Positions 5,335 to 12,061 of a DNA stretch of 64,000 bases are shown here, in pieces. The stretch's first letter is position 1; each line of letters begins with the position of its first letter. A program made the translations under genes and the position numbers. The notes under the pieces were generated by a model, which was not told where the DNA came from, searched no databases, and saw only the letters and a list, made by a program, of their open reading frames with translations. The stretch lies in the NCBI GenBank assembly GCA_947165505.1, contig CAMVAT010000001.1:112958-176957 (forward strand), in the 5' to 3' direction. This DNA comes from an uncultured Prevotellaceae bacterium (GTDB lineage: Bacteria; Bacteroidota; Bacteroidia; Bacteroidales; Bacteroidaceae).

Positions 5335-6090
5335 TTAAAGGTCAATGCTATTTGGTGTCTGATAGACACAATGATTAAAGATAAGATTGGCATTACAACC
5401 ACCTAAAGAACGAACATTATCAATTTGATTCTTTATGTATGAGATAGTGTCCATGTCCTTGTAATAAACTCGGTTTATGGGTGCATCTGTTCCAAATAAA
5501 ACTTTTTCCATTAGACCTCCATTCAAAATTTTATGTAAATCGCACATTGGCATAAACGCGGTGTCAACGAAAGCATTTGAACATTTATTCATTATTTCAA
5601 TGGCTTCATCTACAGGCCGGCCATGAGCCAGCACAAATGTCAAGTCATTATTATTCTGAATAATTTCTGCAAACTTTCCTGCATGGCAATTTTCAAAATT
5701 TCCTGTATGCAATAGGACAGGAACTTTCAGCTTTTTAGCAACGCCCAAACCACGCTCCACCAATTTTTCATTATGCGCCCACTCTGGATGAGCCCCCCAA
5801 TGCATTTTTATCCCCCTCCATCTGACTTTGCTGCGCAGCATAAAAGGCAGAGCGTATCTTCTCTTCATCATTTTGGGGGTAAGCCACAAGATGGGGCATA
5901 TTCGATTTCCTCCGATTCCGATGAGTTCTCGCATTTCGCGAACCACCACTTTGTAGAGTTCGGCGCAAGTTGAGGTGGAGGAAACAACAATTCCATCGAC
6001 ACCTGCTGCCATCTCTGAATACCACACTTCCCTTGGAGAGTGGTATCCATCAGTAAACCATCCAACATGTACATGATTGTCTATAATCAT
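5335..6090 (-). CDS. Amidohydrolase family metal-dependent hydrolase (TIM barrel)
   Basis: MIIDNHVHVGWF HxH motif, VPVLLHTGNFENCH, FVLAHG, VLFGTDAPI. Confidence 0.85.
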   Translation of the reverse strand: MIIDNHVHVGWFTDGYHSPREVWYSEMAAGVDGIVVSSTSTCAELYKVVVREMRELIGIGGNRICPILWLTPKMMKRRYALPFMLRSKVRWRGIKMHWGAHPEWAHNEKLVERGLGVAKKLKVPVLLHTGNFENCHAGKFAEIIQNNNDLTFVLAHGRPVDEAIEIMNKCSNAFVDTAFMPMCDLHKILNGGLMEKVLFGTDAPINRVYYKDMDTISYIKNQIDNVRSLGGCNANLIFNHCVYQTPNSIDL

Positions 6091-6170
6091 TTTACACGTA
6101 CTAGTAAAAATAAAAGGAAGATAACGCTATCAATTTCCCGAATGGAATAACCCCCATGAATATACAGAAG

Positions 6171-6380
6171 CTAAATCATCTCACTGTTTTTATCATTTAT
6201 TATTTTTTTAATTTGAGAAATTGTTTCTTTTACGCGGACAGTTATAACTTCTTCATTACCTTTCCAATGCAATAATGCTGGAGTATCTTCGTCTTGAAAA
6301 CCCCATTCTACAGAATTTGGAACTAATATTGTCCTTCCCGTTTTGTAGTCATGTAACTTAATTTGTATAATTTGTGCCAT
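6171..6380 (-). CDS. Small FlbD-like hypothetical protein in the RiPP-like locus
   Basis: 69 aa; KLHDYKTGRTILVPNSVEWGFQD...LLHWKGNEEVITVRVKETISQIKKII pattern. Confidence 0.55.
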   Translation of the reverse strand: MAQIIQIKLHDYKTGRTILVPNSVEWGFQDEDTPALLHWKGNEEVITVRVKETISQIKKIINDKNSEMI

Positions 6381-6492
6381 AAAAGTAAATTTCTTTTAAA
6401 TCTGTATAAAAAAATGCCATTTCATCATTTTTCTTTTTGCAATGTGCTGTACAGGTTTCGTTTATAAGAAAGCGTTCTAAACGTTAGTAATT

Positions 6493-6520
6493 CTACGCCA
6501 GTCTTATTTAACTGGCGTAG
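6493..6520. repeat. Perfect 10-bp stem-loop between precursor ORF and downstream genes
   Basis: CTACGCCAGT (6493-6502) cttattta ACTGGCGTAG (6511-6520). Confidence 0.9.
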
Positions 6521-6580
6521 ATCAAAGAATGGTAAAGGATGGAAATCTAACACCATTTAACCTTAAACCGTCAACATAGC

Positions 6581-6733
6581 TTACTGGCTTCTTTCACAAA
6601 CACTGCATCCATCTTCACCATGGTTAGCGAAAATTGCACATTGTTTTCCACGATTCTTAGTAGGGCATCCTGCGGCATAAGAACCAGCTACTTGGTTTTT
6701 TGCGACCAATTCCACTTTTTTGTACTTTTTCAT
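6581..6733 (-). CDS. Candidate radical-SAM-modified RiPP precursor peptide (50 aa, 4 Cys)
   Basis: MKKYKKVELVAKNQVAGSYAAGCPTKNRGKQCAIFANHGEDGCSVCERSQ*; starts 53 nt after the rSAM stop, same strand; absent from the ORF track because shorter than 60 aa. Confidence 0.75.
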   Translation of the reverse strand: MKKYKKVELVAKNQVAGSYAAGCPTKNRGKQCAIFANHGEDGCSVCERSQ

Positions 6734-6786
6734 TGGTTATAAAAATATAAATTTAGCCTACCTCCTTTTTAGCGAATCGGCATTTT

Positions 6787-8283
6787 CTATTTATTGGTAT
6801 TATCTTCAAAATAAAGAGATTTCAATAAGCCTTTAGAATGATACTCTTCAACAAGACTCTTTAAAAGGAATGCTTCATCACAAAATGCTTTACTTATTTT
6901 GAACATGTTTCCATCATTCTCATTAAAATTTCTTACAAGGCAACGAGAACAAAAATCAAATGCCTCACACTCTAAACATTGTGGGAATGATGATTCTTTT
7001 ATCTTTCTTAATTCTTTTATCTTTTCACTGTTTTCCCATATCTCCTTAAGGGATTGCTTATAAACATTACCTAAGATATATCCTTGCCAACCAGCACAAG
7101 GATACACATCTCCATTTGCGGTAATACAACAATTATCATATCCGACCCCACATAGAGGCTGATTCTTAAACGCCTCAAAATCTAAAAGCATTTCCTCTGA
7201 CTTAGGAATCTGTTTTAATGTGCCATTTCGATAATCAACATCATATTCAATAATGCTTCTCAACAAGGCTTCCGTTTCCTCAATTGAAAGACGTTGTTCT
7301 AGATTGTCGGTGGAAAAATCAGAACGTGCCATCATTATATAATCTGTTTGTACTCTAATATCGCGCTTTCTAGCATACTCTATAACTCCTAAATATGAAT
7401 CTTTATTTGTCTTCATTATAGGACAAGAAATCTGAACTGGAATGTCTGCTTTAATCAGTTTATCTATGGCCATTTTTGTTTTCTCACAAGAACCGCTTAC
7501 TGTTGTTATTTTATCGTGTACTGCAGGTTCAATAGAATAAAGAGATGTTTGCACAATAGACAAATTAGCGGCTTTTAGGATTGGAATATGCTCGTCTTTC
7601 AAAGAAATCAGATTAGACAAGACACTTATTCGTAAATCTTTTATTCTACAATACTTTATTATTTCCATTAAGTCTTTGTGCATAAATGCTTCTCCACCAC
7701 TTAAAGTAATATGAATTCCACCCATCCGGGCAAACTCATCGATAAGACTAAATACTTTTTGTTTGGGCATATCGAAACCATTATTCTTTTTTTCATTAGG
7801 AATGTAACAGTGAATACATCGTTCATTACATTTGCTTGACAGCTCAAATTGTAGTGATGAAATTTTTGGACTACCTTGTATCTCTTCTAAAAAGAAATCC
7901 TGTGTACTCATTCCTATTTTTTGTGATGTCTCCTGGAAATACATACTCGTAAGTGTTTTAGGATTATTCTTTTTGTAAGAAAAATCTAAATCTTTTTCAT
8001 CTATTTCTTGGATAGTTTCACCTATAATCACAAAACGATGTTTTTCGAGATCTTTGATAAAATCAATAAAGTCTTTCTCAAGCTCATCTCTTGACACCCC
8101 TTCAAAAACGGTTAAAAGATGATTGATTATAACTTCCACATCTTTTGCTTCTCTACCTATTTCTCGCAAAAAATCTGCACCAGTAGAATTGTACACGCGA
8201 TCAAACTGGGTAAGCTGATTTGTTACATAACCATAACGTTCTGTATTTCTAATGAAAGTATTCTTCGATTGTCTTATATACAT
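6787..8283 (-). CDS. Radical SAM/SPASM peptide maturase with N-terminal PqqD-like (RRE) region
   Basis: CNERCIHC (CxxxCxxC); SGGEAFMH; SPASM-type Cys CGVGYDNCCITANGDVYPCAGW...CLECEAFDFCSRC; about 90-aa PqqD-like N-terminus. Confidence 0.9.
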   Translation of the reverse strand: MYIRQSKNTFIRNTERYGYVTNQLTQFDRVYNSTGADFLREIGREAKDVEVIINHLLTVFEGVSRDELEKDFIDFIKDLEKHRFVIIGETIQEIDEKDLDFSYKKNNPKTLTSMYFQETSQKIGMSTQDFFLEEIQGSPKISSLQFELSSKCNERCIHCYIPNEKKNNGFDMPKQKVFSLIDEFARMGGIHITLSGGEAFMHKDLMEIIKYCRIKDLRISVLSNLISLKDEHIPILKAANLSIVQTSLYSIEPAVHDKITTVSGSCEKTKMAIDKLIKADIPVQISCPIMKTNKDSYLGVIEYARKRDIRVQTDYIMMARSDFSTDNLEQRLSIEETEALLRSIIEYDVDYRNGTLKQIPKSEEMLLDFEAFKNQPLCGVGYDNCCITANGDVYPCAGWQGYILGNVYKQSLKEIWENSEKIKELRKIKESSFPQCLECEAFDFCSRCLVRNFNENDGNMFKISKAFCDEAFLLKSLVEEYHSKGLLKSLYFEDNTNK

Positions 8284-8338
8284 ATCTTTTATTGTTAATG
8301 TTTTTTACTGGTAGTTTAAAGATTGAGGAATGGCGTCG

Positions 8339-8581
8339 CTACTCCTTCTGTCCTATTTTAAAAGAATAAAACTCATTTGATTGTTTTTCGAAAAGAGGTA
8401 CGAATTCAGATTCGGTAATACATTCTGTTTTTATTATTTCTTTAACCCCACTTATTTCCCCCAAATATCTAAGCGCAACGATACTTGGGTCGGAAGACCC
8501 TTCCATCGCCACAAGAATTTCCAAAGAACGAGGAGCTTTTCCTCTTTCTGTTAACTCGACTGTAACTTTGTAAAAATACAT
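8339..8581 (-). CDS. Hypothetical 80-aa protein, first ORF of the RiPP-like locus
   Basis: Start re-set to MYFYKVTVELTERGKAPRSLEILVAMEG; alternating beta/alpha pattern; upstream part of the listed ORF looks non-coding. Confidence 0.5.
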   Translation of the reverse strand: MYFYKVTVELTERGKAPRSLEILVAMEGSSDPSIVALRYLGEISGVKEIIKTECITESEFVPLFEKQSNEFYSFKIGQKE

Positions 8582-8698
8582 ACGTAATAAAACTAACATT
8601 ATGCCTACGTCCTTTTTTGTTAGCCCCGAGTACGGACACCAATGGTTGAATCGATTCGGCTTTCTATTCGCTTCATGACAACGAGAATTGCATACTAA

Positions 8699-9193: not shown

Positions 9194-9745
9194 TCATCCG
9201 CCGACGGATACTTCACTGACACCTCCCTCGATGCCACCGGTGTAGGAGCCGATGTCGTGGCCGTCGCGTATCAGACGCTTGGCGATGAAGGGTTGACCAA
9301 CCAACACCATGGGCACTTCGAGCAAGTCGGACACGAGCAACTTACCGCCACTGACGGATTCGACACGGCAACGGCCATCGTCGGACACACGCATCACCAC
9401 ACGCCGCCGGGGCGGATAGCTGACGGTGACGACGGTGCCAACGGGCAAATCAACGGGAAAGACGGCACTGTTCTCGGCATCAATGACCGAGTTGCTGTCT
9501 TCGGTGCAACGGCAGAGCAGGCGCCAACTGCCATAGCCTAAGTAGCGGGCGACGACCTGAAGTGTGGACTCAGTGGGCTTTACCTCGGACAGGAGGCCGA
9601 ACAGCCGCTTGAGGGTGTTCACGCCGATACGCTCGCCCGTCCGCTGTTCGATGTCTAAGGCGAGAGCGTCGAACTGTGAGGGGCGCGAGAGGTCGCACCC
9701 GATGCGCTCACGGATGAGTTTTTGGATATAGGGTGAAAGTGTCAT
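9194..9745 (-). CDS. Hypothetical protein, possible regulator, downstream of and coupled to a Ser/Thr kinase
   Basis: 183 aa; YIQKLIRERIGCDLSRPSQFDALALDIEQRTGERIGVNTLKRLFG N-terminal helical domain; ATGA overlap with the kinase stop. Confidence 0.65.
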   Translation of the reverse strand: MTLSPYIQKLIRERIGCDLSRPSQFDALALDIEQRTGERIGVNTLKRLFGLLSEVKPTESTLQVVARYLGYGSWRLLCRCTEDSNSVIDAENSAVFPVDLPVGTVVTVSYPPRRRVVMRVSDDGRCRVESVSGGKLLVSDLLEVPMVLVGQPFIAKRLIRDGHDIGSYTGGIEGGVSEVSVGG

Positions 9746-11118
9746 GGTTGCACGATATGGTCGTTATGTTTCTGATTGAGTCGGTAATGGTCGATATTTG
9801 CTTGAAAGAGCGAATCAATACGCCTCATCTGTTGGTAGAGATAATTGTCGCACGGGTTGTAGGGCTTGGGGTTGCCTGTGTAGTTCATCCAATGGATGCG
9901 CATCCAGAATGGGGCTTTTCTCCTGCCATAGTCCAATGCAGCGTTTTTCATAGGCTCATAGGCCGCACGGTATGCCTCTATGCCTCCTAGTTGAAAAGGT
10001 TTCTGCGCATCAGACACAAACTGTATGAGTTTGGTCAATATCGAGTCGGTAGTGGGTTGGAACAAGGCCAACTCACGCATCTGACGGGCGCGGAAACCTG
10101 TCTTGGGTATGACATGAGGGTCGATGGTGTCGAACGTTGTGGCTGTGGCATCGTCGATAGAGATGACGGGGTGAGGGGATGCTTCGGTGGTGACGACGGG
10201 CTGAGGGGCAGCATCATTGGTGACAGGGGACCCTGTGTCCGCATCTGATGCGACTTCGCCAACTGCACCAGACAGAGCGACACTGCGCTCAACCGCCGTA
10301 TCGTTGACAGCCATGCCTGATGGTGGCGGTAAGGCCTGCTCTTCTACCGCCGGGGATTTGCCGCTCCATGCCCACCATGCCCAACCTCCCAGCAACAGGA
10401 GGAGCATTGCGGCTGCCAGGGGCCACCACCGACGTGGTTTTAGCAGAGCCGCAGACAGCTGGTCGATGCTCTGATACCTCTCCGCTGCATCGGCACGACG
10501 ACAACGGGCAGTCACCGACTTTCTGGCGATACCCAGCTCATCAAAAATGACACCTAAAGAATAAATGTCACTGGCGGGGGTCTTCACCGGGTCAGGGGCC
10601 GTGTAGTGCGGCGTGCCGCCTGTGGTGAAGGGGTAGCTGTCTTGATAGGCATACCCCAAGTCGATGAGCTTGACGTGACCACCTATGCGCGTCATCAAGA
10701 TGTTGTCGGGCTTGAGGTCTAAATGAAGCACCCCATGCTGATGAAGGTATGCTACGGCAGACAACAGTTCGTCGATCAACTGCCGTGCATGGTCTTTCCG
10801 TGCGAAATAGCCGGGATGGAGCGACTCCCATTCGTTGAGCGTGACCCCATCGACATAGTCCATGAGGAAATAATCGTCGTGCCACTCCAGATAACGTGGA
10901 ATATTGGGATGCTGCAAAACACAGCCCAGCTCAAACTCCTTTTCCAATGCCTGAAGGTATCGCTCATCGGCCGCATATTCGGGAAGCAGTTGCTTGCGCA
11001 CCACCAAGCGTCCACGCTGTCGGACCAGCGTACACGTACACATCCCCCCGCTCGCCAAAAAAGAGTCGTGCGGCTGGGCGGTGGCATCATGAGGCGTTAT
11101 GACAGATTCTTCAGGCAT
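9742..11118 (-). CDS. Membrane-anchored serine/threonine protein kinase
   Basis: VRK Lys, HLDLKPDNI catalytic loop, LIDLGYA, GTPHYTAPD; TM WWPLAAAMLLLLLGGWAWWAW followed by a C-terminal domain. Confidence 0.9.
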   Translation of the reverse strand: MPEESVITPHDATAQPHDSFLASGGMCTCTLVRQRGRLVVRKQLLPEYAADERYLQALEKEFELGCVLQHPNIPRYLEWHDDYFLMDYVDGVTLNEWESLHPGYFARKDHARQLIDELLSAVAYLHQHGVLHLDLKPDNILMTRIGGHVKLIDLGYAYQDSYPFTTGGTPHYTAPDPVKTPASDIYSLGVIFDELGIARKSVTARCRRADAAERYQSIDQLSAALLKPRRWWPLAAAMLLLLLGGWAWWAWSGKSPAVEEQALPPPSGMAVNDTAVERSVALSGAVGEVASDADTGSPVTNDAAPQPVVTTEASPHPVISIDDATATTFDTIDPHVIPKTGFRARQMRELALFQPTTDSILTKLIQFVSDAQKPFQLGGIEAYRAAYEPMKNAALDYGRRKAPFWMRIHWMNYTGNPKPYNPCDNYLYQQMRRIDSLFQANIDHYRLNQKHNDHIVQP

Positions 11119-11575: not shown

Positions 11576-12061
11576 TTACTCAGCCTTCTCCTCTGCTGCG
11601 GGAGCCTCGGCGGCTGCCTCAACGGGGGCTTCTGCCTTGGCAGAAGACTTGCGGCTACGGCGGGTCTTCTTAGCTGCCGACTTGGGAGCCTTCAGCATGT
11701 TCTCGTCGAAGTCAACCAGTTCGATGAAGCAGACAGAAGCGCCGTCGCCCTTGCGGGTGCCGAGCTTGATGATGCGGGTGTAGCCACCGGGGCGGTCGCC
11801 CACTTTCTCGGCCACGTTTTTAAACAGCTCGGTGACGGCATACTTGTTCTGCAGGTAGCTGAACACCACACGACGCGAATTGGTGGTGTCTTCCTTCGAA
11901 CGGGTGATGAGCGGCTCAACATACATTTTGAGCGCCTTCGCCTTGGCGAGAGTCGTAGTGATTCTTTTGTGCATGATCAGCGAGATGGCCATGTTCGCGA
12001 GCATCGCCTGACGGTGGTCTGCAGTACGACTCAGATGGTTGAATTTCTTATTATGTCTCAT
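11576..12061 (-). CDS. rplQ: 50S ribosomal protein L17
   Basis: [25 protein letters not shown]. Confidence 0.98.

Follow-up and report, generated by a model that had tools for sequence, protein, structure and literature searches.

A precursor peptide, radical SAM/SPASM maturase and amidohydrolase cluster in Prevotellaceae as a probable variant of the radical SAM RiPP systems

Radical S-adenosylmethionine (SAM) peptides are well described in Firmicutes. Closest to the locus treated here are SkfB/SkfA, which make the sporulation killing factor, a sactipeptide, the ranthipeptide systems CteB/CteA and PapB, the streptide system SuiB/SuiA, and the systems for pyrroloquinoline quinone (PQQ) and mycofactocin. 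The locus lies in a stretch of 64,000 nucleotides, hereafter the window, from an uncultured Prevotellaceae bacterium with a gut-type Bacteroidota genome (assembly GCA_947165505.1, contig CAMVAT010000001.1, positions 112,958 to 176,957, forward strand), in which an initial annotation had noted a gene for a radical SAM protein and, 53 nt from it on the same strand, an open reading frame (ORF) of 50 aa, proposed to encode its substrate. Coordinates and sequences of both were as given there (Table 1). The system is a precursor/maturase/amidohydrolase variant of the radical SAM type of ribosomally synthesized and post-translationally modified peptide (RiPP). We put at roughly 80% the probability that a RiPP recognition element (RRE) guides the radical SAM enzyme, that Cys thioethers would be installed in the peptide and that the amidohydrolase would catalyze a second step.

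With SkfB/SkfA the locus shares an RRE-fused radical SAM maturase beside a short Cys-containing precursor. SkfB, however, has a twitch domain (PMC8326336), whereas the window maturase has a full 7-Cys SPASM domain, its precursor is unrelated, an amidohydrolase belongs to the cluster, and the maturase scores 62.9 bits with the NCBIfam model of SkfB (cut-off 300 bits). Common to the locus, CteB/CteA and PapB are the RRE plus SPASM architecture, a Cys-containing substrate and, putatively, the thioether chemistry, and 5wgg and 5why are among the top PDB matches; the precursor described here as type A differs in having three invariant Cys and neither the six-Cys-in-forty-five (SCIFF) pattern nor a CX3D repeat, and the PapB model stays far below its cut-off where it is listed (type B and L051 maturases, see below). 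By current rules ranthipeptides are largely absent from Bacteroidota (n = 2; PMC13289728). SuiB is likewise an RRE-SPASM maturase and has the closest fold (5v1t), but is only 13-15% identical, and the cores found here do not conserve the Lys and Trp that are paired in streptide. PQQ and mycofactocin systems also use a PqqD-type recognition domain and have no dedicated exporter; here, by contrast, their models score far below cut-off, the core is hypervariable and no partner oxidoreductase is conserved. In Bacteroidales the RiPP clusters BGC1-9, which are also dominated by radical SAM enzymes, have GG leaders and mostly C39 transporters, and the paper describing them never uses the word hydrolase (PMC10352776).

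The three conserved genes

When 393 genomes from the same order were searched, a second copy of the 50-aa peptide turned up in another family (genome G057, locus L018: MKKYQKPKVVAKNNPQGSYAAGCPAKGTGTSTYCRSCERSS), followed by a maturase 52% identical and an amidohydrolase 30% identical to those of the window. The window maturase alone as query in a scan of genome contigs had retrieved only a distant relative from Omnitrophota; with a two-sequence maturase profile, the 249 genomes of the window's genus yielded 6 more close orthologues, scattered sporadically over 5 further genomes, all with the peptide at most about 1.4 kb upstream of the maturase and the amidohydrolase downstream. Run against these 249 genomes, a profile of the 8 peptides recovered the window and exactly those 6 loci at E ≤ 1e-22; no other match was better than 0.003, and there was not a single orphan peptide. 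Peptide and close maturase are paired one to one (7/7). Thus 7 homologues are available, each adjoining an amidohydrolase gene homologous to that of the window and the gene of an orthologous SPASM maturase with a PqqD-type (RRE) N-terminus (51-65% identical to the window maturase), and the trio is complete in 8/8 clusters. The precursor precedes the maturase in 7 clusters and follows it in the window, the linkage being kept. Plasmid records contained no homologue of the peptide. Partial matches at L006, L007, L022 and L068-L072 (E 0.001-0.007) were set aside as chance; those in L006 and L007 fall in or among unrelated genes.

The 8 peptides have 16 invariant positions (M1, K3, Y4, K6, A11, K12, N13, G17, S18, Y19, A20, A21, G22, C23, C43 and C46). 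A leader with the consensus MKKYxKxxxxAKNxxTGSYAAGC is followed by a hypervariable core framed by the invariant Cys at 23, 43 and 46; C32, which the initial annotation had counted with these three as a fourth core Cys, is present in only 2/8 peptides. Over leader codons 2-23 of the 8 genes the synonymous and nonsynonymous differences (pS 0.65, pN 0.16, pN/pS 0.24) indicate purifying selection, and the full-length precursor pair of L049 and L050 gives pS 0.61 and pN 0.07. Mean identity among the peptides is 76% in the leader and 17% in the core (positions 24-42); between L045 and L046 the leaders are identical, the maturases 73%, the amidohydrolases 84% and the cores 30% identical. A leader that is kept while the core changes fast is the usual RiPP pattern, and so variable a core suggests that the peptide is not a fixed cofactor but diversifies, in signalling or antagonism. 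Judged by its conservation the 50-aa ORF is a real gene, and conservation, selection and constant linkage together support its proposed role as the substrate of the maturase.

In the maturase Pfam recognizes Radical_SAM (PF04055, E 7e-22), SPASM (PF13186, E 6e-14) and PqqD (PF05402, E 2e-6; 28.2 bits against a curated cut-off of 23.4), in agreement with the domains first assigned by eye. The CX3CX2C motif lies at residues 152-159 and the SPASM Cys at 378, 396, 436, 439, 445, 448 and 468 (spacing CX12GX4C and CX2CX5CX2C, where the final CX2C falls one residue short of the usual CX3C); the Cys of the motif and all seven SPASM Cys are invariant in an alignment of 13 relatives. In the AlphaFold2 model (pLDDT 82) strands and three helices make up a PqqD-like N-terminus. 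Its best PDB folds are SuiB, closest overall, SkfB, CteB and PqqE, and the best PDB sequences for the maturase profile are SkfB (6efn, E 5e-22), PqqE, CteB and SuiB. None of the NCBIfam models of known maturases (AlbA, SkfB, StsB, PapB and others) is satisfied: the listed scores are about 56-129 bits, and the cut-offs 180-850.

The amidohydrolase matches PF04909 with E 5.5e-9 (36.6 bits, cut-off 26.4). H6, H8, H128, H156 and D202 are invariant in the homologues from all 8 clusters, so that the protein probably is a functional metalloenzyme. The AlphaFold2 model (pLDDT 91) is most similar to the uncharacterized CAC3332 (3cjp), followed by LigY, LigJ, 2-pyrone-4,6-dicarboxylate hydrolase and ACMSD. 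It is the sole conserved hydrolase of the clusters, and neither a C39 or other peptidase nor a transporter was recognized beside them upon reading of the neighbours and selected Pfam scans, as already noted for the window; a processing role of the amidohydrolase is therefore likely. A described role for such a partner in a RiPP context was not found in the literature.

Proposed mechanism and its rivals

In the proposed mechanism the RRE would bind the YxKP..AKN part of the leader, the radical SAM enzyme would abstract hydrogen from core residues, and the invariant C43 and C46, possibly also C23, would become thioether donors. The amidohydrolase would then catalyze a second, hydrolytic step, either trimming leader or core or hydrolyzing a bond in the modified product, which may exit by a housekeeping route or act inside the cell. 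Three invariant Cys fit a putative thioether bond of the sactipeptide or ranthipeptide kind.

The wider maturase family bears on this chemistry. Maturases 34-40% identical to that of the window (L039-L043, L052 and, from viral-contig records, L061 and L062) pair with a second precursor, type B, with the consensus Y/FxKPKILAQSTVxMA(D/E)CRPNSxPSGRPCNPPxPGGR. Besides the two viral-contig records, several families of the order have type B precursors with their own SPASM maturase; at L039-L043 and L052 an amidohydrolase match is absent. No Pfam or NCBIfam model covers either precursor type (for type A the NCBIfam scan included the window copy at E ≤ 1 and five homologues at E ≤ 10). Both leaders have, in this order, an aromatic residue, KPx-hydrophobic and AKN or AQS, and both cores contain Cys. 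In lasso peptides the leader motif YxxPxL, which these leaders may resemble, binds its RRE. As a separate observation, a SPASM-like radical SAM protein of 501 aa is encoded at L019 (699-5373; genome G410) between two MATE-transporter-like frames with slight overlap, the second of them broken; no precursor was recognized there.

Thioether formation is the chemistry we prefer from the sequences, since all cores have Cys as their shared reactive residue, while the L047 core and the Pro/Arg-rich type B cores contain no Phe, Trp or Tyr. It is unlikely, although worth considering, that the same RiPP cluster instead joins aromatic or other side chains by C-C or C-O bonds, in the manner of SuiB, triceptides or daropeptides, and that the Cys form disulfides or, as CxxC, bind a metal. 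Such crosslinks would suit the best fold match, SuiB being a Lys-Trp C-C cyclase, as well as the F-x-N motif common to the window and L048 cores and the Trp or Tyr of the other cores except L047; as the common reaction, however, aromatic crosslinking was rejected, since some cores lack aromatic residues, and the thioether enzymes SkfB and CteB are among the closest in sequence.

Quite improbable is a product of the PQQ or mycofactocin kind, in which the amidohydrolase would cut a small and conserved cofactor or redox molecule out of the precursor, with the variable part as spacer. A hypervariable core, a sporadic distribution and a location in low-GC DNA are unlike a housekeeping cofactor, and no partner dehydrogenase or oxidase gene is conserved beside the clusters, even if the missing exporter, the use of a hydrolase instead of a peptidase, the PqqD-type RRE and the conserved SYAAGC and CxxCER would all agree with it.

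That the 50-aa ORF is a bystander and the maturase modifies another protein, as the anaerobic sulfatase-maturating enzyme (anSME) or QhpD do, we consider very improbable. anSME structures do occur among the fold matches, but they rank below the RRE-bearing RiPP maturases SuiB, SkfB and CteB and below PqqE, which are the nearest solved relatives; the RRE likewise argues against the anSME class, which was rejected, and strict co-occurrence, selection on the ORF and a linkage kept despite changed gene order speak for the peptide. Among the ORFs neighbouring the clusters, part of which were scanned, a sulfatase was not recognized. Hardly credible is a tiny lipoprotein with AAGC as lipobox, a reading rejected although AAG-C stands at 20-23 in 8/8 peptides, since a hydrophobic stretch before it is absent (KKVELVAKNQVAGSY) and type B has MAD/MAE-C, which is not a lipobox.

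Several points weigh against the preferred reading of an RRE-guided RiPP cluster. L051, from the same genus, combines a 44% identical maturase with a different peptide containing CCSKC (MKEYSAPQALTTLVKENKSLLGKAIASGDMVCCSKC), and L048 (5283-8114) has two tandem SPASM maturases (437 and 501 aa, the first about 32% identical to that of the window) with one visible precursor, so that strict one-to-one pairing does not extend to the wider family. The distance matrices of peptides and maturases correlate weakly (r 0.08, or 0.43 when L018 is left out), and the lack of a recognized peptidase or transporter counts here as well.

RNA elements around the precursor

Directly 3' of the precursor a strong hairpin is found in 8/8 clusters, differing in sequence (z scores -3.3 to -5.7; -4.2 for the 95 nt downstream of the window precursor), an arrangement expected where precursor and enzyme are to be made at different levels. 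In 7/8 clusters a 5' element, GCCGA...GTAGGC, lies 21-27 nt before the ATG. It was first taken for a new motif, until Rfam identified the commoner subtype as DUF805b RNA (RF02914), above the gathering score in L047-L050 and L051. The copies in the window, L045 and L046 belong to a second subtype (GYCGAWWCGCTNNAAAGGARGTAGRC), a variant not matched by Rfam; between 6700 and 6830 of the window there is no RF02914 match at E ≤ 10, whereas L047-L050 do match. This variant can form the same pseudoknot as DUF805b RNA: in the window the 5' strand of helix P1, UAG, coincides with the maturase stop codon, and P2 is GCC/GGC. P1 (CAG/CUG, AAG/CUU, UAG/CUA, ACG/CGU) pairs in 43/45 cells versus at most 30 when slid, and P2 varies from GCC/GGC to GUC/GAC; the count, from 15 sequences of several genes in which the pairing had first been read, supports the pseudoknot without proving it.

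At L051 the two subtypes stand in tandem. Within the genus the element also precedes other small, secreted or phage genes, and the second subtype lipoprotein-like and other accessory genes (L094-L106). A pattern search of the window genome returned the element of the precursor and one other match, no more than the reversed control. A scan for sigma-70-type promoters gave fewer sites than in shuffled sequences. Papers on DUF805 RNA were not found in a literature search. At L088 and L089 a DUF805b-type element at 1501 stands directly before another candidate Cys peptide (MAEINLKKLLDESMLKEIDQDCIILNEEQADELYGGAEWGYYGNCSFGNCH), the leader of which is GG-like.

In the window the precursor follows the maturase and yet has both the 5' element and the 3' hairpin, and so behaves as a cassette. 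One may tentatively go further and propose a RiPP class in which a Cys peptide, once radical-modified, would depend for an obligatory step on an Amidohydro_2-type metal hydrolase rather than on a protease or C39 transporter, and in which each precursor gene would be a self-contained cassette behind a translation-controlling DUF805b-type pseudoknot.

Neighbourhood, mobility and meaning

The GC content of the window cluster is 33-40% compared with about 52% in the surroundings, by which the block looks acquired. In L018 a 149-nt direct repeat (99% identical) encloses exactly the precursor-maturase-amidohydrolase trio, which therefore seems to move as a unit. The repeat includes the 3' end of a respiratory-complex gene (nuoE/hndA-like, named by eye from the sequence), and there is no integrase between the copies, an unusual insertion footprint. 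The gene set looks like mobile, low-GC cargo.

Upstream of the cluster and pointing towards it, a protein kinase gene with a small partner gene is present at 7/8 same-genus loci (window, L045, L047-L051), and the window genome contains only 10 kinase-like places and about 3 such pairs; the pair may reflect either regulation or an insertion hot spot. A different radical SAM/SPASM-like protein is encoded near rplQ at L020 (1159-6105; genome G418), and the window cluster is likewise near rplQ, which suggests a shared insertion site in the genus.

Two further genes of the locus had initially been listed with the amidohydrolase, a FlbD-like gene (the 69-aa ORF) and one of 80 aa (the 81-aa ORF). The amidohydrolase is kept in 8/8 clusters; the other two gave zero tblastn matches at the other 15 loci compared and were rejected as parts of the system. 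The products of 50, 69 and 81 aa match no Pfam, NCBIfam or PHROGs family, the FlbD identity has no support at E ≤ 1, and a longer reading of the 81-aa frame gave one chance-level NCBIfam match (E 0.18).

Table 1. Positions of features in the window and at related loci
Feature	Sequence	Position	Strand	Remarks
Precursor peptide	window	6581-6733	-	50 aa; leader MKKYKKVELVAKNQVAGSYAAGC; CxxCER at the C-terminus, after a variable core
Radical SAM/SPASM maturase	window	6787-8283	-	498 aa; N-terminal PqqD-type RRE, about residues 1-97
Amidohydrolase (PF04909, Amidohydro_2-type)	window	5335-6090	-	251 aa
69-aa ORF	window	6171-6380	-	between precursor and amidohydrolase; no family match; outside the conserved set
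81-aa ORF	window	8339-8584	-	upstream of maturase; outside the conserved set
5' element before precursor	window	6756-6789	-	DUF805b-class variant; putative H-type pseudoknot
Perfect hairpin 3' of precursor	window	6493-6520	-	CTACGCCAGT...ACTGGCGTAG
Small partner gene of kinase	window	9194-9745	-	
Protein kinase (PF00069)	window	9742-11118	-	
rplQ	window	11576-12061		
DUF805b RNA before precursor	L047	7319-7353		
DUF805b RNA before precursor	L048	5029-5063		
DUF805b RNA before precursor	L049	7399-7433		
DUF805b RNA before precursor	L050	4998-5032		
DUF805b RNA before precursor	L051	6963-6997		
Direct repeat, first copy	L018	4194-4342		
Direct repeat, second copy	L018	7105-7253		

The peptide family is real and apparently undescribed. 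Thioether-type radical SAM peptides are scarcely recognized in Bacteroidota, in part because annotation and current family models miss such precursors. The cluster provides a precursor family that is open to testing and clear in its consensus, together with its enzyme pair, and it links RiPP precursors to the orphan RNA motif DUF805b.

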